A stretch of DNA of 64,000 nucleotides from Gloeomargarita lithophora Alchichica-D10 (lineage in GTDB: Bacteria > Cyanobacteriota > Cyanobacteriia > Gloeomargaritales > Gloeomargaritaceae): assembly GCF_001870225.1 (NCBI RefSeq), contig NZ_CP017675.1, forward strand, positions 2,720,045 to 2,784,044, in the 5' to 3' direction. Of this stretch, positions 33,824-63,580 are shown piece by piece (within the stretch, counting starts at the first letter, position 1; every line of letters starts with the position of its first letter). Both the position numbers and the translations under genes were made by a program. The notes under the pieces are model-generated. The model was not told the DNA's origin, did not search any database, and worked only from the letters and a program-made list of their open reading frames with translations.

Positions 33824-35158
33824 TTACAACGTATAACTAAAATCCTGCACCAACATCCCCGGTGTCAACACTCCCCCCAAACTGCGATGTTCATAGGTAT
33901 CGGTGGCGGGCATCAATATTTGGGTTTGGGTCAAGCCCCTCAGCCCCTCACCCCAAAAATGATAAAGCGTTTCATCAAACCGCAGATTTTCAATCGGAGC
34001 CACCCACTGCCCCCGCTCCACCCAAAAACAGGCATAGCGGGTCATGCCCGTAATCCGCCCCGTCGCCTGGTCACTCCAGTTCAAATAATGCAAATTCGAC
34101 ACATACAAACCCCGGTCGAGGGTGGCTAAAACCTGGTCATCCGCCAAAGTCCCCGGTCGGATTGCCGGTGCCCGCAGATATTCCCCCTGCACCGCCCCGT
34201 TGGGGGTTAAACCGTACTCCTTCGCCGTGCGATTGCTGATTAAAGTGTGTACCAATGCCCCTCGCTCAATCAGGGGCAACTGCGCCGGTGCCAAATCCCC
34301 CTGGTCGTTGAAGCGGGGGGCGGGAATATCCTGGAAATTTTCCCATAAATGTAATGACTCATTTAGCCGCCGTTCCCCCCGTTGCAGGGGCAAAAGGGCA
34401 CTGGTTCCCTGGCGCAGGGCTGCCTCACTCACCCCACCCCAGGACAACATCCCCACCAGTTCCGCCACCGCCGCCGGGGCAAAATAGGTCGGATAACGAC
34501 CGGGGGGCAAGGCTTTCGCCGGTTGGGCAAGGAACTGCAACTGGGTGCTTAACGCCTGAATTTGGGCACTAAAAGCGGCTAAATCCCAGACCCGGTCAGC
34601 GTAACAGCCCTTCACCGCCCGTTGCTGGGCATTAAATAGGGAATAGTCTAAGGTAAAGGACTCGGTTTGGAACCAGTGGGACTGCCCCGCACTATCCCCA
34701 TAGGCCCGCACCTGCGACCCCCCCGCATATAGCCCCGTAAAGTCCAAACTGTGAACCGTAGGAACAATCTCAGCAATCACCGCTGTTATGGGGGGAATCA
34801 TCCCCGCCTGCTCGACCCGGCTCTGCTGTGACCCATTCGGTAATACCAGAAACGGGTCCGGGGGCAGTTGGGGCACCTCCAGACGCAGTTCCGCCACCGC
34901 CGTTTGCAGTTGGGCCGTATCCAACGGGACAACCCCCATCAAAGGAAACCGCCGATAGCCACTGCGTCCCTGGGTTATCAGCGTTAGTTGCACCTGGGCA
35001 TCCTGCACCGTCCCCGTTTGGCGAATCTTACCGCCATTGAACCGCACAAAATCACTGGATTCCGCCACCAACTCCGCCCGCCACGCTTCTGGCAAACCTG
35101 CCAGGACGTTCATACAACTCTGCCAACTGTCGGCAATGGCGGCGATAAAATCAGCCAT
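33824..35158 (-). CDS. TldD/PmbA-family metallopeptidase-like protein
   Basis: A 444-residue protein of the TldD/PmbA (TldE) family. C-terminal family segments are LNESLHLWENFQDIPAPRFND, LIERGALVHTLISNRTAKEYG and GLYVSNLHYLNWSDQATGRIT. The zinc-binding HExxxH of TldD is not seen, so this is the PmbA/TldE-like partner type, which acts with TldD on peptides such as microcin precursors. A TldD partner is not in this window. It is divergent from the apcD-like gene, with 287 bases between starts. Confidence 0.88.
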   Translation of the reverse strand: MADFIAAIADSWQSCMNVLAGLPEAWRAELVAESSDFVRFNGGKIRQTGTVQDAQVQLTLITQGRSGYRRFPLMGVVPLDTAQLQTAVAELRLEVPQLPPDPFLVLPNGSQQSRVEQAGMIPPITAVIAEIVPTVHSLDFTGLYAGGSQVRAYGDSAGQSHWFQTESFTLDYSLFNAQQRAVKGCYADRVWDLAAFSAQIQALSTQLQFLAQPAKALPPGRYPTYFAPAAVAELVGMLSWGGVSEAALRQGTSALLPLQRGERRLNESLHLWENFQDIPAPRFNDQGDLAPAQLPLIERGALVHTLISNRTAKEYGLTPNGAVQGEYLRAPAIRPGTLADDQVLATLDRGLYVSNLHYLNWSDQATGRITGMTRYACFWVERGQWVAPIENLRFDETLYHFWGEGLRGLTQTQILMPATDTYEHRSLGGVLTPGMLVQDFSYTL

Positions 35159-35445
35159 GTTGTCTCCCTCAAACCCTGTTTATTATGGCACTTCAGTCAT
35201 TTCCCTGGGACAATGGGCATACTAGGGCTAAAAATAAACGGCTCAACCCCCAACGGATTCGTCACCCGATTTATCCCTTTCGTAACACAATTGTCCACCC
35301 CTTTGTCACACGGTTCGTAGTACAGAAACCGATTTTTGTTTGTTGCAAATATATTTCAAATCACAACTTTTTGTTCATAATGTGTTCCATTGGTTTAGGC
35401 TTCATTTTATGTTGTTACCTGTAGTCAATTTTTTAATTAAATCCC
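35159..35445 (+). promoter_or_regulatory. A/T-rich promoter region of the low-light antenna cluster
   Basis: This 287-base divergent region separates the PmbA-like gene from the apcD-like gene. Its right half is very A/T-rich, with a perfect palindrome AAATATATTT at 35347-35356 flanked by TTG and CAA, and further runs near 35375-35440. No single -10/-35 pair stands out. The apcD-like ATG at 35446 has no Shine-Dalgarno sequence (ATTAAATCCC precedes it), which is unlike the apcB-like gene that follows. Confidence 0.4.
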
Positions 35446-35919
35446 ATGAGTCTTGTCGCGCAGGTGATCGCCCAATCGGATGCGGCTGAACGGTTCCTCA
35501 GCAGTACCGAATTGAACAAATTGGCAGAGTTTTTTAGCAAAGGGGCATTGCGGGTTCGGGTGGCGGAAAAACTAGCGGCCAATGAGAAAAAAATTGTGGA
35601 AGAAGGGAGCAAGCGGTTTTGGGCAAAATGTTCCAACACGCCGAGCAACCGGGGTAATGCCCAAAAAACTGCCCTGTGTCAACGGGATCAGGGTTGGTAC
35701 ATTCGTTTGGTGAGCTACTGCGTTTTAGCGGGAAATGATAAACCTTTGGATGATATTGGCCTAAATGGGATGCGGGAAATGTATGTATCGTTGGGGGTGC
35801 CTTTAGCCAATCTGCGGATGGCGATGGGGAGTCTCAAGGATGTGGCCGCCGGGTTGATGTCTGGGGAAGAGATGGCTTTGGCCGCTCCCTATTTTGACCG
35901 GTTAATCCGCGCATTTTAA
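35446..35919 (+). CDS. apcD4: ApcD-like allophycocyanin alpha-type subunit (ApcD4 type)
   Basis: A 157-residue phycobiliprotein alpha-type subunit, closest in pattern to ApcD. The bilin-binding cysteine is C78 in ALCQRDQGWY. The loop before it is about three residues shorter than in ordinary ApcD (GNAQKTALC where ApcD has GNAYGQRQYNQC), and an extra cysteine lies at C92 (VSYCVLAG). Next to an ApcB-like and an IsiA-like gene, this fits the apcD4-apcB3-isiX low-light cluster, where ApcD4-ApcB3 forms red-shifted allophycocyanin that can absorb beyond 700 nm. The assignment to ApcD4 rests on gene order and these changes; an ApcD1-type core subunit is less likely. Confidence 0.82.
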   Translation: MSLVAQVIAQSDAAERFLSSTELNKLAEFFSKGALRVRVAEKLAANEKKIVEEGSKRFWAKCSNTPSNRGNAQKTALCQRDQGWYIRLVSYCVLAGNDKPLDDIGLNGMREMYVSLGVPLANLRMAMGSLKDVAAGLMSGEEMALAAPYFDRLIRAF

Positions 35920-36039
35920 GTTCAAAATAGCCCAAAATTTGCTGGAATTAAATCCACAAAAATCATCAATTTATATTGGTGTGTGTGGCATTGATTCCCT
36001 TGATTATCCATCCCAATCATTTATCGAAGAGGAGACATC

Positions 36040-36525
36040 ATGCAAGATACAATTACGTCCCTGATCAATCCCGCCGATGAACAGGGGCAATACCTGAATG
36101 CCGCCGCTTTGGATCAACTCAATAAATACTTTCAAAAGGGTGCGGTACGGGTGCAGGCGGCCAGCACGATTAGTGACACCGCCAGCAGTATTATTAGCAA
36201 AACCGTGGCGAAAAGTTTGCTCTACGGGGACATTACCCTACCGGGGGGCAATATGTACCCCACTCGGCGCTATGCGGCCTGTTTGCGGGATTTGAATTAT
36301 TTCCTGCGCTACGCCACCTATGCCATGTTGGCCGCCGATGCTTCCATCCTGGATGAGCGGGTGTTGAACGGCTTGAAAGAAACCTACGCGGCGTTGGGGG
36401 TGCCCATTGACCGGGTGGTGGAAGCCCTGAATGCCATGAAAGAAGTTTTGCATGGGGCGGTGGGTGCCGAGGCGGGGCAGGAGTTGGGGGTGTATTTGGA
36501 TCACATCACCGCTGGTTTGGCCTAA
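36040..36525 (+). CDS. apcB3: ApcB-like allophycocyanin beta subunit (ApcB3 type)
   Basis: A 161-residue allophycocyanin beta subunit with an ordinary ApcB start ([19 protein letters not shown]). The bilin cysteine is C81 ([20 protein letters not shown]). The asparagine of [11 protein letters not shown] (N71) is the usual methyl-asparagine site. GAGGAG lies ten bases before the ATG. The changes from housekeeping ApcB are scattered ([28 protein letters not shown]). It lies 120 bases after the apcD-like gene and 65 before isiX. The pair should assemble as an alpha-beta heterodimer distinct from the main core. Confidence 0.86.
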
Positions 36526-36590
36526 CCCTGACCGGATTTCCCTGCTTCGGTGGGGGAATCATCCCATTCATCCATGCAAAAGGTGTTGTT

Positions 36591-37946
36591 ATGAAAAAGA
36601 CCCAAACCCCGCCCCTGTATCCTTGGTGGGCGGGCAATGCCCGGTTTATTGACCAATCGAATACGTTTATCGTGGCTCACGCGGCGCAGGGGGCGTTGAT
36701 CATGCTCTGGGCGGGAGTATTCACCCTGTTTGAACTGGCCAAATACAACCCCGCCGCTCCGATGTACGACCAGGGGTTGATTTTACTGCCCCACCTGGCC
36801 GCTTTGGGTCTGGGTGTGGGCAATGGCGGGCAGATTGTGGAACCATTTCCCTACCTGGCGGTGGCTGGGTTTCATCTGGTGGCCGCCGGGGTGTTGGCCT
36901 GGGGAGCCTGGTTCCATCGGGAGAAACTGCCCGCCAGTCTGGAAATGACCGCACCGCCGGTGGTGAAATTTCATTTTCGCTGGGATGATGAAGCCAAGTT
37001 GGGGCTGATTTTGGGGCATCACCTGTTGATGTTGGGTTTGGGTGCCTTACTTTTAGTCGCCAAGGCGATGTGGTTTGGTGGTTTGTACGATGCCACCCTC
37101 GAACAGGTGCGGGTGGTGAGTCAGCCGAATGTGGATGTATTTGCCCTGTGGGAATACCGTACCCATTTGTTTGATGTCAATAACCTGGAAGACCTGGTGG
37201 GCGGCCATATTATTGTGGCGGTGTTATTGCTTCTGGGGGGAACTTGGCATATCCTGGTGCCGCCCTTTGGTTGGGTAAAAAACCGCTTTTTATTTTCCGG
37301 CGATGGGATTTTGAGCTATTCCCTGTTTGGCATTGCCTTGGCGGGGTTTGCGGCTTCCTATTACTGCGGGTTCAATACCCTGGCCTACCCAGTGGCGTTT
37401 TACGGCCCGGCGCTGGAACTCAAATCCCAGTTTGCGCCCTACTATTTTGACCCAGCGGGGGCAGAAATTTATTCGGCGCGGGTGTGGCTGGCCAATGCCC
37501 ACTTTTACCTGGCCTTTTTCTTTCTGCAAGGGGGGCTGTGGCATTTCCAACGGGCGATGGGGCTGGACGTGAGCCGGATGTTCCGTTCTTGGCAGGAGGA
37601 ACTCCAGGCGGTGTATCAACCCCAATTCCAATGTGAACCCCAAGCCCTGCTGGAGGTGGTCTATGAGCCGCGGTTGGTGCCCGCTCCGGCCATTGCCCCT
37701 GGGGAAACCGAGGCCATGTATGAGCCGGTACAGGGGTGGCACGCTCCATCCCTGCGGGTGATCAACGGGGTCAAAAATACCCTTTACCAGGCGGTCTATC
37801 ACTGGCGACCGGTGGTGTTTTATGAACCGGCTCAGGTTTCTGGGTTGCGGCAGGAACGGGCAATGGGCGGTTTTTACGCCCCGGCGGCCAAGCCCTCTCA
37901 GCAACGCCCCCCCAGACCCCAACGCTGGTACGGGGTAGGAAATTAG
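36591..37946 (+). CDS. isiX: IsiX-like CP43-type chlorophyll a antenna protein with C-terminal extension
   Basis: A 451-residue membrane protein. Residues 1-330 align along their length with IsiA (62552-63580): [20 protein letters not shown], the helix-1 segment, [47 protein letters not shown] and [18 protein letters not shown]. Six chlorophyll-binding helices are expected. Residues 340-451 are an extra soluble tail with repeated aromatic-acidic-proline units (YQPQF, YEPRL, YEPVQ, YEPAQ) and a basic, proline-rich end. The AAGGTG upstream of the ATG is a fair ribosome binding site. In LoLiP strains IsiX is made under low light; the function of a tail is not known to me. Confidence 0.86.
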   Translation: MKKTQTPPLYPWWAGNARFIDQSNTFIVAHAAQGALIMLWAGVFTLFELAKYNPAAPMYDQGLILLPHLAALGLGVGNGGQIVEPFPYLAVAGFHLVAAGVLAWGAWFHREKLPASLEMTAPPVVKFHFRWDDEAKLGLILGHHLLMLGLGALLLVAKAMWFGGLYDATLEQVRVVSQPNVDVFALWEYRTHLFDVNNLEDLVGGHIIVAVLLLLGGTWHILVPPFGWVKNRFLFSGDGILSYSLFGIALAGFAASYYCGFNTLAYPVAFYGPALELKSQFAPYYFDPAGAEIYSARVWLANAHFYLAFFFLQGGLWHFQRAMGLDVSRMFRSWQEELQAVYQPQFQCEPQALLEVVYEPRLVPAPAIAPGETEAMYEPVQGWHAPSLRVINGVKNTLYQAVYHWRPVVFYEPAQVSGLRQERAMGGFYAPAAKPSQQRPPRPQRWYGVGN

Positions 37947-37987: not shown

Positions 37988-38011
37988 AAGGGGAGGTTTT
38001 GGCTTCCCCTT
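37988..38011 (+). terminator. Candidate terminator of the apcD4-apcB3-isiX unit
   Basis: The inverted repeat AAGGGGAGG / CTTCCCCTT (nine pairs, one G-U) with a six-base loop lies 42 bases after the isiX stop and is followed by GTTTA. The stem is strong and the T-tract short. It is the only obvious hairpin before the repeat elements that follow. Confidence 0.55.
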
Positions 38012-38251: not shown

Positions 38252-38791
38252 ATGAAATCCTGGTGGTGGGGTATCGGTGTGGGGTTATTGGTCAGCAGTT
38301 GCCAGTTGGGTACCCGTTGGCAGATGGTGCAGGGGGATAGGTTTCAGGTGAATTTTCCCGGCACACCCCAGCAGGAACAACGTACCTTGGAAACCGGGGT
38401 GGGGGAGGTGGCGACCCAGGCGTGGGGGGTGAACCGCCCCAGGGGTTCCTATGCGGTGGTGTTTACGGACTATGACCAGCCCGTGGTGCGTCTTGCCCAT
38501 TCCCCCCTGGTGTGGGAGCAACTCAAAGCCCAGGCGCAACAACGGGTGCAGGGGCGGGTGACCCAGGAGCGGCAGGTGACCCTAGGCAATCATCCGGGGC
38601 GAGAAATGATTGTTACCATTCCCCCGGAACGCTTGACCGGCGGTGGGGTGGCCAAGGTGCAGTTTTATTTTGTCGGTCAGCGGGTGTATGGGCTGTACGC
38701 CATCGTGCCCCAGGAACACCAGCAGGATTTAGCCCCATTTTTTGATTCGTTTCAGGTGACAAATAATCCCGTTCCGGCTCCGGCAAATTGA
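38252..38791 (+). CDS. Predicted lipoprotein, unknown family
   Basis: A 179-residue protein with a short tryptophan-rich signal peptide and a lipobox LVSSC (C17). The mature part is a single domain with features VQGDRFQVNFPGTPQQEQ and YAVVFTDYDQPVV and ends in a proline/alanine tail. The layout resembles small periplasmic proteins that cyanobacteria keep in many copies, but I cannot name the family. It is the first gene of a long run on the plus strand; the next gene starts 58 bases on. Confidence 0.82.
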   Translation: MKSWWWGIGVGLLVSSCQLGTRWQMVQGDRFQVNFPGTPQQEQRTLETGVGEVATQAWGVNRPRGSYAVVFTDYDQPVVRLAHSPLVWEQLKAQAQQRVQGRVTQERQVTLGNHPGREMIVTIPPERLTGGGVAKVQFYFVGQRVYGLYAIVPQEHQQDLAPFFDSFQVTNNPVPAPAN

Positions 38792-38849: not shown

Positions 38850-40910
38850 GTGACCCGCCGCACCTGGTTAGAAACAACGGAATACGCTCTGGTGTTGGTG
38901 TCCTTGGTGGGAACTGTGGTCGCCGCCGTTTCCCAGCAGGTAGTGCTGGCCGCCCTGCCCATGTCGTTAGCATTACTCGTAAATTTGATCCACCGCACCC
39001 AACTGGAAGCCAACCAACACCAACTGCTGTTGACCGCCCTCGAAAGTCTCAACCAACGCTACGGCACCGATATTAAGTTTCTCCGCCGCCGCCTCCAGGA
39101 TGTTTTACTTCTGCCTGAGTCCGTGAATCTCACGCCCCTGGAGCATTCATTACAGGAATTGCAACAGGCATTGGGGAACCTGCACCAGGAAATGAATCAA
39201 CGGTTAACCAGCGTTGAAGGGCTGAATTTAGCACCCCTGCAAGCCAAACTAATCCAACTCCAAGAGCAGTACAGTACCCTGCGGACGGGGTTGGGGGAAC
39301 TGACCCAAAATATGGCCGGACTGCCCCAGGCACAGCAGGTCGTGCAGATGGAAAAAGGGTTGGAGCAACTGCAACGCCAAGCGGTTCAACTGCAAACCCA
39401 GGTGCAACAACTGCGCCAAATCCCGGTGGTGGATGTGCAACCCTTGGAAGTCCAATTGCAGTACCTCAGCCAACAAATCACCGCTCCCCAAGCCCTGCAA
39501 ACCCAAATTGAAACCATTGAAACCGCCACCCAACGCCTCCAGTCCGCTGTGGAACGGTTGGGGCAGGATGTTTCTGCCGCCCTACAAGTCCGGGAAACCG
39601 TCGGTCGCCTAGAACGGGAACTGCATACCCAAAGCAAACTTGCCCCCCTGGTACAGCAATTGGAGCAAAAATTGGGGCAGGTCGTCAGCCAATACCAGCG
39701 GCAGGAACGGTTTACCCAAGCCGTTGCCCAAGAACTCCAGCAACTACAAACCCAGCAGGCGGAGATTGCCACCTGGGAACCCCGGTTAAACCAATTGGAG
39801 CAACAAACCCAGGCGGTGCAGGAATTACACGACCGGGTGCAAGAACTACAGGACCAAACCCGCACCCAGGTGAACCGTGCCGCCCTGTTGCCCCTGGTCA
39901 CCGCCGTAGAGCGATTGCACCAGCAACAGACCCAACACCAGCACCGTCTGGCACCCCTAGCCACCGCCCTCGCCAACCTGCAAACCGAACTGACCCAACT
40001 GCAAAACGCCCCGGAACCCGCCGCCCTTAGCCAAGTCCGCAGTACCTTAGAACACCTCACCGGCCAAGTGGGCGAACTCAGCCAAGGCAATGCCCAGCAA
40101 CTCCAGCAGGTCAAGCAAGAATTAACCCGCACCCAAGCCCAACTCGCCCGCTTAAACGACCTCCCCCACCTGCAACAACAACTCACCGAAATGGCGCAAC
40201 TGGTCAGCCAGATTGACCACGGCCACGGCGATCTGCGGGAATCCACCCAAACCCTCGCCAGCCGCCAAAGCCAGATGGAACAGCAGTGGCAGACCACCCA
40301 AACCCAACTGCAACAGGTGCCCGACCAGGTGGCCACCGCCATCCAAGACTGGGCAACCACCATTAACCGCCAGTTGCGCCAACTCCCCAACCACACCTAC
40401 GAACTGGTGGCCGACCGGTTTGGGGGGCGAGAAATTCTCCAGCAAGCCCTGACCCAAACCACCCAGGAATTGATCATCGTTTCCCCCTGGCTGAGCCAAC
40501 AGACCATTGACCGGCCTTTTTTGCAAACGCTCCGCCAACTGTTAGCCCAAGGGGTGCGGATCCGCATCGGCTGGGGGGACGTGCAGGATATGAAAAGCCA
40601 GGAACTCAGCCGCAACAAACGCAACCAATGGCGGGAAGGGCCGGGGCGGTTTTCCTGGAAATACAACGCCCTTGGAGATTTAGAGCAACTGGAGCAGGAA
40701 TTTCCCCAGCACCTGCACCTGAAAATCATCGGCACCCACGAACATTACCTGGTCAGCGATGACCAATTTGCCCTGGTGGGCAGTCACGCCCTCCTCGGGG
40801 GCAGTGGCACCAGCCGGGAAGTGAGTTTGAAAACCACCGACCCCCGCCTGATTCAGGATTTACGCAAACGCTTCCAACGAGCCGCCGATTTAGACGATAT
40901 GAATTGGTAA
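38850..40910 (+). CDS. Long coiled-coil protein with C-terminal PLD-like domain
   Basis: A 686-residue protein. Two short hydrophobic segments at residues 10-50 (YALVLVSLVGTVVAAVSQQV) anchor it to the membrane. Residues 55-520 are one extended glutamine/leucine-rich coiled coil (LQQLQ, EQLQRQA repeats). The last 165 residues are a single phospholipase-D-like domain with TTQELIIVSPWLSQQT and HLKIIGTHEHYLVSDDQF followed by ALVGSHALL. The HxK motif of active PLDs is altered to HEH, so catalysis is doubtful. The start is a GTG at 38850, preceded by AGGA. A partly hollow role as scaffold or membrane-linked sensor is inference. Confidence 0.85.
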   Translation: MTRRTWLETTEYALVLVSLVGTVVAAVSQQVVLAALPMSLALLVNLIHRTQLEANQHQLLLTALESLNQRYGTDIKFLRRRLQDVLLLPESVNLTPLEHSLQELQQALGNLHQEMNQRLTSVEGLNLAPLQAKLIQLQEQYSTLRTGLGELTQNMAGLPQAQQVVQMEKGLEQLQRQAVQLQTQVQQLRQIPVVDVQPLEVQLQYLSQQITAPQALQTQIETIETATQRLQSAVERLGQDVSAALQVRETVGRLERELHTQSKLAPLVQQLEQKLGQVVSQYQRQERFTQAVAQELQQLQTQQAEIATWEPRLNQLEQQTQAVQELHDRVQELQDQTRTQVNRAALLPLVTAVERLHQQQTQHQHRLAPLATALANLQTELTQLQNAPEPAALSQVRSTLEHLTGQVGELSQGNAQQLQQVKQELTRTQAQLARLNDLPHLQQQLTEMAQLVSQIDHGHGDLRESTQTLASRQSQMEQQWQTTQTQLQQVPDQVATAIQDWATTINRQLRQLPNHTYELVADRFGGREILQQALTQTTQELIIVSPWLSQQTIDRPFLQTLRQLLAQGVRIRIGWGDVQDMKSQELSRNKRNQWREGPGRFSWKYNALGDLEQLEQEFPQHLHLKIIGTHEHYLVSDDQFALVGSHALLGGSGTSREVSLKTTDPRLIQDLRKRFQRAADLDDMNW

Positions 40911-41052: not shown

Positions 41053-43245
41053 ATGGCTTCTTTCCTTCACCGTCTGCAAGCATGGCCGCCGGTACAGAAA
41101 ATTGGGCTTTGGTTGGGTTGGCCTGCCCTGGTGGGGGGGCTGGTGGTGGGGGTGGTGATCACCGGGGTACGCACCGCCGGGGGGTTGCAAAATGGTGAAT
41201 TAGCCCTCTATGACCAAATGATCCGCTGGCGACCGGATGAACCGCCGGACAAGCGGGTGTTGGTGGTGGAGGTGACCGAGGCGGATATTCAAAAATTGGG
41301 GCAATGGCCGTTGCGGGATCAAACCTTGGCGGAAGCCCTGCGGTTGTTGTTGACGGCGAACCCACGGGCGATTGGGGTGGACTTTTACCGGGATATTCCC
41401 CAGGAACCGGGGAGCAAGATATTAAATGACCTATTAAGCAAAGAAGATAAGGTGATTACGGTGTGTAAATTGGGGGATGCCAATAGCCCCGGCATTAAAC
41501 CGCCCCCGGCAATTTCAGCGGCACAGGCGGCGAATCGGGTGGGGTTTGCGGATATGGTGGTGGATTCCGGGGGCACGGTGCGGCGGGCGTTGTTGGGTGG
41601 TCAGGTTGATCCCCAGTCCCCGTGCCCGACCCCGAATGCCCTGGGCGTGCAAATGGCCTTGCGGTTTTTGGCTCCAGAGGGGATTCAGCCCCAGCAGACT
41701 GGCGATGGGACAATTGTTCTCGGTCGGGCAACTTTTCCTCGTTTGACGGCGCAATCGGGGCCCTATCAGGGGGTGGATGACCGGGGGTATCAGGTGTTGT
41801 TAAATTACCGGGGGCCGCGGCGGGCGGTGGAGCAGGTCACCCTGGCGGAAGTGTTGGCGCAACAGGTGCCGCCCCGGTTGGTGGAGGGTCGCTTGGTGTT
41901 GGTGGGGGTGACGGCGGCCAGTGCCAAGGATGATTTTTACACGCCCTACAGTGCGGGATTAAAAGAAGACCAAAAGATGGCGGGGGTGGTGATTCATGGG
42001 CAGATTGCCAGCCAAATTATTAGTAGTGCCCTGGATGGCCGGACGCAAATCTGGTACTGGGGCGAAGGGCTGGAGATTTTGTGGATATTCTTTTGGTCTT
42101 TCGCCGGGGGAATGATTGCCTGGCGGTTGCGCCATCCCCTGGGTTTGGCTCTGGGATTGGGTGGTGCTGTGGTAATTGTGGTGGGTGCCGCCGTGGTCAT
42201 GTTTGCCCTGGGGGGCTGGATTCCCCTGGTGCCTCCGGTGCTGGGGGTGGTGGGGACGGGGGTGGGGGTGGTGGCCTACATTGCCTACGAAACCGACCGG
42301 CAACATCGTTTGGTGGCGGCCAAGGCGGCGCAACAGGAGCAACAGATTACCATTTTGCAAAATTTACTCGAATCCACCCAGGCGACGATGGCGGGGAATT
42401 TGGGCGTGCGTCCGGCGCAACCCACCCGCCGGGAGGAGGGCTTGTTGGCGAATCGGTATCAGGTGGCGAAGGTGCTGGGGGAGGGGGGTTTTGGCCGTAC
42501 CTACCTGGCGCAGGATACCCAACGCCCGGGGCGACCGACCTGCGTGGTGAAGCAACTCAAACCGGGGCGTTCGGACAGTCAATTTTTGCAGTTGGCGCGG
42601 CGGTTGTTTAATACGGAGGCGGAAATTTTGGAAATCCTGGGGCGGCACCGGCAGATTCCCCAGTTGTTGGCCTATTTTGAGGAAGGGCAGGAATTTTATC
42701 TGGTGCAGGAATTTATCCAGGGAACGCCTTTGGATAAGGAGTTGGTGGCGGGGCAAAAACGGGATGAGACCTATACGGTCAGCTTTTTGCGGGGACTTTT
42801 GGAGGTGTTGGCCTTTGTCCATGAACATAAGGTAATCCACCGGGATTTGAAACCCGCCAATATCATTCGGAGAGCGAAGGATCAACGGTTGGTGTTGATT
42901 GATTTTGGGGCGGTGAAACAGATGCGACCAAAATCCGAGGGCACGGAGGCGGATTATACGGTGGCGGTGGGCACTCGCGGTTATGCCCCCAGTGAACAAA
43001 TGGGGGGGCGACCCCAGTTGAACAGCGATATTTATGCCCTGGGGATGATTGGGATTCAATGTTTGACGGGGATGCCGCCCCGGGACTTGGATTTAGACCA
43101 GGATACCGGGTTGCCCATTTGGCGAGAGCGGGTGCAGGTGAGTGGGCGATTGGCGGATATTTTGGACAAGATGGTGGCCTACTTCTACACCGAGCGCTAC
43201 CAGAGTACGTTGGAAGTGTTGCGGGATTTGAAGCCCCTGCTCTAG
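41053..43245 (+). CDS. CHASE2-domain Ser/Thr protein kinase
   Basis: A 730-residue membrane receptor kinase. One membrane segment at about 22-38 leads to a periplasmic CHASE2 sensor (KRVLVVEVTEADIQKLGQWP, NPRAIGVDFYRDI, residues 45-310). Two or three membrane segments follow at 335-415, then a kinase domain at 466-730 with GEGGFGRTYLA, the VVKQLK lysine, catalytic HRDLKPANII near 596 and the metal motif IDFGAVKQM. All catalytic residues are present. CHASE2 ligands are unknown. The FHA-domain gene begins 36 bases after the stop, a typical kinase-with-reader arrangement. Confidence 0.93.
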   Translation: MASFLHRLQAWPPVQKIGLWLGWPALVGGLVVGVVITGVRTAGGLQNGELALYDQMIRWRPDEPPDKRVLVVEVTEADIQKLGQWPLRDQTLAEALRLLLTANPRAIGVDFYRDIPQEPGSKILNDLLSKEDKVITVCKLGDANSPGIKPPPAISAAQAANRVGFADMVVDSGGTVRRALLGGQVDPQSPCPTPNALGVQMALRFLAPEGIQPQQTGDGTIVLGRATFPRLTAQSGPYQGVDDRGYQVLLNYRGPRRAVEQVTLAEVLAQQVPPRLVEGRLVLVGVTAASAKDDFYTPYSAGLKEDQKMAGVVIHGQIASQIISSALDGRTQIWYWGEGLEILWIFFWSFAGGMIAWRLRHPLGLALGLGGAVVIVVGAAVVMFALGGWIPLVPPVLGVVGTGVGVVAYIAYETDRQHRLVAAKAAQQEQQITILQNLLESTQATMAGNLGVRPAQPTRREEGLLANRYQVAKVLGEGGFGRTYLAQDTQRPGRPTCVVKQLKPGRSDSQFLQLARRLFNTEAEILEILGRHRQIPQLLAYFEEGQEFYLVQEFIQGTPLDKELVAGQKRDETYTVSFLRGLLEVLAFVHEHKVIHRDLKPANIIRRAKDQRLVLIDFGAVKQMRPKSEGTEADYTVAVGTRGYAPSEQMGGRPQLNSDIYALGMIGIQCLTGMPPRDLDLDQDTGLPIWRERVQVSGRLADILDKMVAYFYTERYQSTLEVLRDLKPLL

Positions 43246-62551: not shown

Positions 62552-63580
62552 TCACATCTGCATGGAATTTAAGGCTCGTTCCACGCGCCGAAAATCAAAT
62601 CCCAAAGCCCGCAAAGCGTGCCACAAATGACCTTGCAGGAAGAAAAATGCGAGGAAGAAATGGGCATTCGCCAACCACGCCCGGGTGCTATAAGCTCCGT
62701 AGGGTAGTTTCACCGTATCGGCAAAATAGGGCGTGATTCCCAACTTCACCTCCAAAACCGGACCATAAAATTCCACAGGATAGGCGAAGGTATTCACCGC
62801 ACAGAAATAGGCCGCCACAAACCCAGCCAAAGCAATTCCCCCCAAAGAGTAGGATAAAATCGCTTCGCCAGAAAATAACAGCACCCTTTTTGCCCAGTTC
62901 AATGGCGGAATTAAAATATGCCAAATTCCCCCGCCAATTAGCAAAACGCCCACAAAAATGTGCCCCCCCACCAAGTCCTCCAGGTTATCGAGGCTGGCAA
63001 AGTGGGTTTGATAGCCATAAATAACGGCTGGATTTAAGGTCGGGTTCGTGACTAACCGTACGGTTTGGGTAGCGGCATCGTACAAACCACCCCACCAACA
63101 GGCTTTCGCCACCAGGAGCAAAGCCCCCGTACCTAAAAACAGTAAATGATGCCCCAGAATAATGCCCAATTGCCGGGGATTTTCCCATTCAAAATGGAAA
63201 CGTTTTGCTAAACCGGGAGCATTTTTCAAGCTCTCTGGAGCTTTGAAAGCGTGGAATAAAGCCCCCGCTCCCAGCACCGCTGACGAAATCAAATGGACTG
63301 CCCCCACCACAAAATAGGGATAGGTATCCACAATTTGTCCGCCTTGGCCAACTCCCAAACCCAAAGTGGCTAAATGAGGGAGTAGGATTAATCCCTGCTC
63401 TCCCATCGCCTGGGCGGGATTAAAGCGAGAAATTTCAAATAAGGTAAATGCCCCCGCCCAAAAGGTAATCAACGCCGCCTGCCCAACATGGGCGGCAATA
63501 AATAACCCGGACTTGTCGGCAAAGCGGGCATTTCCTGCCCACCAACCATAGTTTACTTCTGGTTCTCCATAGGTCTGCAT
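62552..63580 (-). CDS. isiA: Iron-stress-induced chlorophyll-binding protein (CP43')
   Basis: A 342-residue, six-helix chlorophyll a antenna protein that rings photosystem I under iron stress. It has normal IsiA length and ends in [19 protein letters not shown], without the soluble tail seen on the IsiX-like paralogue at 36591. Histidine-bearing helices include [36 protein letters not shown] and [24 protein letters not shown] lies eight bases before the ATG. A possible Fur box and a 23-base dyad lie upstream, at 63736-63753 and 63690-63712. Confidence 0.95.

Follow-up and report, generated by a model that had tools for sequence, protein, structure and literature searches.

Three adjacent genes of Gloeomargarita lithophora Alchichica-D10 raise the question whether this cyanobacterium carries an antenna operon of the low-light photoacclimation (LoLiP) type, and how such an operon would be switched. 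The genes, apcD4, apcB3 and isiX, lie in a stretch of 64,000 bases, here called the window, which comprises bases 2720045-2784044 of the single-contig genome (3,049,282 bases, completeness 99.9%). As defined in Synechococcus sp. A1463 / 63AY4M1 (structure 8ddy), LoLiP involves four co-transcribed genes, apcD4, apcB3, isiX and lcyA, which are raised in low light, an absorbance near 710 nm and a helical nanotube. The locus in the window is very probably a complete apcD4-apcB3-isiX antenna operon that was passed on by vertical inheritance, and it is most likely induced in dim, far-red-rich light. The operon family is already known; a conserved block upstream of the genes and a set of loci in which IsiX is reduced to its tail are the most useful new leads.

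Identity of the three genes

A sequence-only reading had noted an ApcD-like, an ApcB-like and an IsiA-like gene side by side. They were recovered base for base as three intact open reading frames (ORFs) on the plus strand, with gaps of 120 and 65 bases between them (Table 1), and are identified as ApcD4, ApcB3 and IsiX. The first two products match PF00502 (E 3.7e-51 and 1.6e-52) and the third PF00421 (E 1.2e-56). In NCBIfam the isiX product passes the cut-off of TIGR03041 (387.7 vs 335), and the first two products stay under the cut-offs of ordinary ApcA (129 vs 270) and ApcB (196 vs 228). The best PDB sequences are chains A and B of 8ddy, the structure of the far-red, helix-forming allophycocyanin from LoLiP strain A1463: 8ddy_A for ApcD4 with 286 bits (5.3e-85), followed by 9i1r_C with 163 bits (margin 123), and 8ddy_B for ApcB3 with 275 bits (1.5e-81), the next sequence having 231 bits (margin 44). 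The ApcD5 chain 8uhe_A reaches 159 bits against the ApcD4 of the window. Chance as the source of the three matches is rejected.

Maximum-likelihood trees were built from rows above score and length thresholds, with identical rows removed. Among 94 alpha rows the window protein falls inside a clade of 29 ApcD4 rows (support 100/99), distinct from ApcD2, ApcD3 and ApcD5; among 61 beta rows it falls inside a clade of 31 ApcB3 rows (100/99). The ApcD1, ApcA and ApcB of the genome are separate genes that group with their respective families, with moderate support for ApcD1 (90/91) and ApcB1 (88/70) and with 100/100 for ApcA; the ApcD-like gene does not group with housekeeping ApcD1. Ser11 is present in 29/29 ApcD4 rows, Ala standing in all 65 others; Pro11 is present in the 31 ApcB3 rows and Thr4 in 30 of them. 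Ser11 and Pro11 also served to label the two groups, whereas the trees used all columns; the labels of the other alpha and beta groups were set by sequence starts and lengths relative to 8uhe. The window ApcD4 has Ser11, Cys62, Cys78 (in a CQRD motif) and Cys92, and its ApcB3 has Thr4, Pro11, Asn71 and a single Cys (81). Judged by sequence, each subunit thus has its putative bilin-binding cysteine, Cys78 and Cys81. Ser11, Thr4 and Pro11 have been linked to helical assembly (PMC10038336; this and the other PMC articles are cited from parts of their text).

In the antenna tree (65 of 72 rows; the omitted 7, from loci L007, L019, L104, L113 and L152, were truncated copies, one duplicate and two loci removed for thinning) the window protein belongs to a clade of 25 IsiX rows with support 100/100. 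An IsiA of 342 aa is encoded in the same window (62552-63580, minus strand) and groups with IsiA (93/63, moderate), hence the genome carries both antenna types. The chlorophyll-binding domain of IsiX is of the same family as that of iron-stress IsiA and is 59% identical to the genome's own IsiA (55-61% across the IsiA proteins compared); unlike IsiA, IsiX stands in a separate clade, has a tail of 117 residues and shares an operon with far-red allophycocyanin genes.

The match to a LoLiP cluster stands for apcD4, apcB3 and isiX, all of which are present together with Ser11 of ApcD4, Thr4 and Pro11 of ApcB3 and a long-tailed IsiX. It fails for lcyA, the photoreceptor gene of the A1463 cluster (PMC12214013), whose product has GAF domains and a histidine kinase; no lcyA adjoins the genes in the window, which also belong to a different lineage. 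Identity to the A1463 chain is 81.5% for the ApcD4 of the window and reaches its maximum, 89.8%, in the row L062; the IsiX tail measures 117 residues vs 127 in A1463 (PMC10038336). The LoLiP-type cluster of Halomicronema hongdechloris resembles that of the window in its kinds of genes, in Cys62, Cys78 and Cys92 of ApcD4 and in having no GAF photoreceptor nearby (PMC12279586), and the absence of an adjacent sensor gene is therefore not itself new. Unlike G. lithophora, H. hongdechloris also has far-red light photoacclimation (FaRLiP); for its recombinant pair an absorbance at 728 nm was found (PMC12279586).

Table 1. Features of the apcD4-apcB3-isiX locus, in positions of the window
Feature	Position	Strand	Description	Evidence
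conserved 91-base block	35335..35425	+	from TTTGTTTGTTGC to CTGTAGT, upstream of apcD4, after divergent pmbA/tldD-type gene	
apcD4	35446..35919	+	far-red allophycocyanin alpha-type subunit, 157 aa	ApcD4 clade, 8ddy_A best PDB match, residues
apcB3	36040..36525	+	allophycocyanin beta-type subunit, 161 aa	ApcB3 clade, 8ddy_B best PDB match, residues
isiX	36591..37946	+	CP43/IsiA-like chlorophyll-binding protein, 451 aa: residues 1-334 and 117-residue C-terminal extension	
possible intrinsic terminator	37990..38008	+	44 bases 3' of isiX stop	pattern scan only, weak

Inheritance and the upstream block

A match better than 1e-60 occurs in 4/386 genomes drawn from the phylum. Within the family (8 genomes) ApcD4 is present in 7/7 genomes of the genus and in 0/1 of the other genus, and apcB3 and isiX adjoin apcD4 in all seven. 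Judged by ApcD4, the closest relatives are Gloeomargaritales VI4D9, a metagenome-assembled genome (MAG; L059, the same record as G390), and Gloeomargarita sp. SKYG116. The divergent PmbA-type gene is common to the window, G085, G386, G387 and G388, further upstream neighbours to the window, G386, G387 and G388, and two downstream genes to the window and G390; G389 has none of these shared flanking genes. The shared flanks point to vertical inheritance of the cluster within the genus.

A pattern-based, non-exhaustive scan of named genomes gave 35 loci, of which L058-L086 are 29 ApcD4 loci (L086 lacks the first 30 residues and was omitted from the ApcD4 tree), L087 and L089-L091 other alpha subunits, and L088 and L092 fragments; L072 and L085 are the records otherwise handled as G070 and G005. 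Genes apcD4 and apcB3 are adjacent on one strand in 29/29 ApcD4 loci. An intact isiX follows on the same strand in 21 of them; in the others it lacks the chlorophyll domain (3), is split into two frames (2), lies on the opposite strand (2, Chlorogloeopsis and Gloeocapsopsis) or falls past the contig end (1). The split genes, L069:3778-5251 and L079:11182-12701, reflect either a sequencing error or a decaying gene.

The 91-base block upstream of apcD4 is identical to the window at 84/91 positions in G085, 77/91 in G386, 69/91 in G388 and 60/91 in L062. It is far better conserved than the fourfold-degenerate sites of the three genes, for which the values are 0.63, 0.48, 0.47 and 0.35. Since the roughly 33 bases 5' of the block are partly conserved (25/35, 24/35, 18/33 and 11/31 in the same order), its edge is not sharp. 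When the upstream region was compared with 25 loci outside the genus, two (L062 and L061) scored above all 300 mononucleotide shuffles and the other 23 were at chance. When up to 3 mismatches were allowed, a 26-base core of the block matched this one site of the genome, and no second copy of the element was found. The block returned 0 Rfam matches up to E 1 and no RNA structure in RNAalifold (-0.14 kcal/mol), which leaves a known or structured leader RNA unsupported, and a plus-strand scan for the sigma-70 consensus gave no match. We infer that the block is a promoter/operator; its conservation argues for specific regulation of some kind, the cue being unspecified.

Histidine kinases of the PAS/GAF or phytochrome type, all from a single family, are encoded in the flanks of five of the 29 named ApcD4 loci (L065, L067, L072, L073 and L086); the kinase encoded downstream of the cluster in L084 is a different one. 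In the flanks of the other six loci of the genus, where four genes were scanned by Pfam and the rest judged by ORF size, no ORF of at least 600 aa directly adjoins the cluster except a PLD-like gene downstream in G390. The four scanned genes encode a sigma-70 factor (G388), an aminotransferase, NadA and a response-regulator-domain protein (G389; 348 aa, about 2.4 kb upstream).

The G. lithophora genome has 19 GAF matches in 13 proteins, six of which were scanned by Pfam. If a Cys-His motif is taken to mark the usual bilin position of GAF domains, as we assume, it is present in three of them, a PAS-rich histidine kinase (L197:35-3247), a GGDEF-EAL protein (L193) and a methyl-accepting protein (L202); the two-GAF histidine kinase L191 has no cysteine at this position. 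The methyl-accepting protein (L202:640-4764, minus strand) has five consecutive GAF domains, every one of them with DPCF and CH motifs, and presumably resembles PixJ-type photoreceptors. Architecture alone identifies no regulator, and no sensor is therefore claimed among the GAF proteins.

The tail of IsiX and its domain-less forms

Fifteen of the 25 IsiX proteins in the tree, 12 of them from outside the genus, were chosen for an alignment. Against the window protein the tails of these 12 are 24-35% identical and their domains 51-72%. Conserved, invariant histidines occur in the chlorophyll domain, and Tyr342, Tyr358, Tyr377, Tyr399 and Tyr411 together with Gln343 and Leu398 are invariant in 15/15 proteins. 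An AlphaFold2 model from this alignment gave a pLDDT below 50 for residues 338-451; the whole model is poor (mean 54.8), and its tail is merely consistent with disorder. In a published proposal the tail of IsiX runs through the nanotube and serves as a ruler; the nanotube repeat is 72.6 A (PMC10038336). A tyrosine spacing of 22 residues is common among the tails and occurs once only in that of the window. As an extended residue measures about 3.3 A, this spacing would span about 72.6 A, a comparison that is given little weight because it was made after the fact and the window tail has the spacing only once. The count of tyrosines followed by a residue of a chosen set is unconvincing: of 5000 shuffles, 39 came up to the value of the window tail, 45 to that of L084, 693 to that of L072 and 1176 to that of L063.

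In three loci of Pleurocapsales (L067:11407-11940, L072:7621-8142 and L073:11179-11700) IsiX is reduced to 173-177 aa: about 28 N-terminal residues are joined to the tail, with nothing left of the chlorophyll-binding domain. The ORF is intact in all three, and since L072 and L073 are nearly identical these represent two clearly distinct sequences. Two related loci, L063 and L086, retain the whole domain. Upstream of the three shortened isiX genes, at distances of up to about 5 kb, there are genes that are taken to encode phycocyanin subunits and linkers. Between L067 and L072/L073 the dN/dS (NG86) of the tail-only protein is 0.40-0.42; a cruder count gave no support for purifying selection after the deletion (Fisher p 0.26 and 0.28). 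As a side observation, an IsiX/IsiA-like fragment with an internal stop (G070:C76:114628-115143) is present in the Myxosarcina MAG whose isiX has lost the chlorophyll domain.

Deletion of the domain with retention of the tail is an argument for an independent function of the tail, and the Pleurocapsales loci look as if it were a separable tether. A joint reading, to which we give somewhat less than an even chance, has two parts. The tail would be a disordered, separable scaffold with a fixed row of tyrosines for docking the nanotube of ApcD4 and ApcB3, and the chlorophyll domain would be optional; the operon of the Gloeomargarita / L062 / Spirulina branch would carry its own conserved control element, so that regulation would be inherited with the DNA site even without an adjacent photoreceptor gene. 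If this is true, the tail-only IsiX would be a tube holder without chlorophyll of its own. The tail-only IsiX of Pleurocapsales offers a naturally occurring test case for the ruler model.

Function and competing explanations

By analogy with A1463, ApcD4 and ApcB3 would carry phycocyanobilin, have their absorbance near 700-730 nm and assemble into a helical nanotube. IsiX would lie next to a photosystem in the membrane, photosystem I being the likeliest, and its tail would hold the nanotube, from which far-red excitation would pass to chlorophyll. A low-light role of the cluster is likely. The operon would most likely be induced in dim, far-red-rich light through a regulator acting on the upstream block; this regulator would be encoded at another place in the genome, since the operon has no photoreceptor gene next to it.

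That the genes are a fragment of FaRLiP, either a remnant of a far-red response with chlorophyll f/d or still in its service, is suggested by the fact that some FaRLiP strains also carry apcD4-apcB3-isiX (PMC4477158, PMC12279586). The FaRLiP allophycocyanins (ApcD2, ApcD3, ApcD5 and ApcB2; 8uhe, 9i1r) are likewise far-red-absorbing paralogues, but they form clades separate from those of the window proteins, and the sequence-only reading's view that the cluster stands without FaRLiP holds beyond the window. The PF00502 matches of the genome comprise a single-copy set, which we take to be ApcA, ApcB, ApcD1, ApcF, CpcA and CpcB, one ApcE-like frame of 903 aa, the ApcD4/ApcB3 pair and two weak matches; ApcD2, ApcD3, ApcD5, ApcB2 and a second ApcE-like frame are not among them. 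There is one psbA match and one match called psbD because it adjoins psbC, and a genome-wide search found no PHY domain, which RfpA carries. Thus no FaRLiP marker was found genome-wide, RfpB, RfpC and photosystem I paralogues not having been searched for, and the FaRLiP fragment is rejected as highly improbable. Equally improbable is the idea that the antenna is iron-stress IsiA and its neighbours are housekeeping ApcD and ApcB copies: the identity of the IsiX domain to IsiA speaks for it, but the three trees reject it, the genome has IsiA, ApcD1 and ApcA/B as separate genes placed with their own families at the support given above, and the tail is absent from IsiA.

More serious, though still unlikely, is a real far-red antenna that is constitutive or tied to iron, redox or growth phase and not to low light. 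Several observations tell in its favour or otherwise weigh against a LoLiP-like operon induced by dim light. No lcyA-type gene was detected by Pfam among the neighbours at 33824-35158, 38252-38788, 38850-40907 and 41053-43242. The homologues of Chlorogloeopsis fritschii do not rise in far-red light and are outside RfpABC control (PMC6424891, PMC4658448), so induction by low or far-red light cannot be assumed; even in A1463 the rise is merely slight, and LcyA also contains a 4Fe-4S cluster, bound in a GAF domain, multiple cues having been suggested (PMC12214013). The tail of the window IsiX is the shortest among those listed, and its tyrosine spacings (16, 19, 22, 4, 8, 18 and 18) are in their later part unlike most others. 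Against this alternative, the conserved upstream block argues for specific regulation of some kind, though not for a particular cue. An operon induced in dim, far-red-rich light is the preferred explanation.

G. lithophora is regarded as closest to plastids and is available as culture CCAP 1437/1 (PMC13022049). A putative far-red antenna operon is present in all seven genomes of this genus covered here, with no FaRLiP marker found and no adjacent lcyA, and the cultured organism with one 91-base block as an obvious handle makes LoLiP-type switching testable. The part of PMC13022049 consulted names both Gloeomargarita and LoLiP without placing the cluster in Gloeomargarita, and in the portions of the literature covered neither the upstream block nor the tyrosine register nor a tail-only IsiX is mentioned, supplements and subscription papers (Soulier et al. 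2022) lying outside this scope.

The cluster is preceded by a divergent gene with a PmbA/TldD domain and followed by an ORF of 179 aa without a Pfam match, a PLD-like-domain gene and a CHASE2 protein kinase gene. The terminator candidate 3' of isiX is weak because the pattern scan of the region found 7 such patterns vs a mean of 5.0 in shuffles. In G388 a sigma-70-type factor gene (L188:11321-12487, minus strand) lies directly 3' of isiX in convergent orientation, an arrangement from which the window differs; G386 and G387 (L186, L187) have ORFs of similar size, orientation and place, seen by size only. The two weak phycobilisome-domain ORFs of the genome lie close together (G000:C1:493739-495781; L010, L012), near 494-496 kb. 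Most cyanobacteria have several psbA copies; the single psbA match of this single-contig genome is located at G000:C1:1226318-1227217 (L148).

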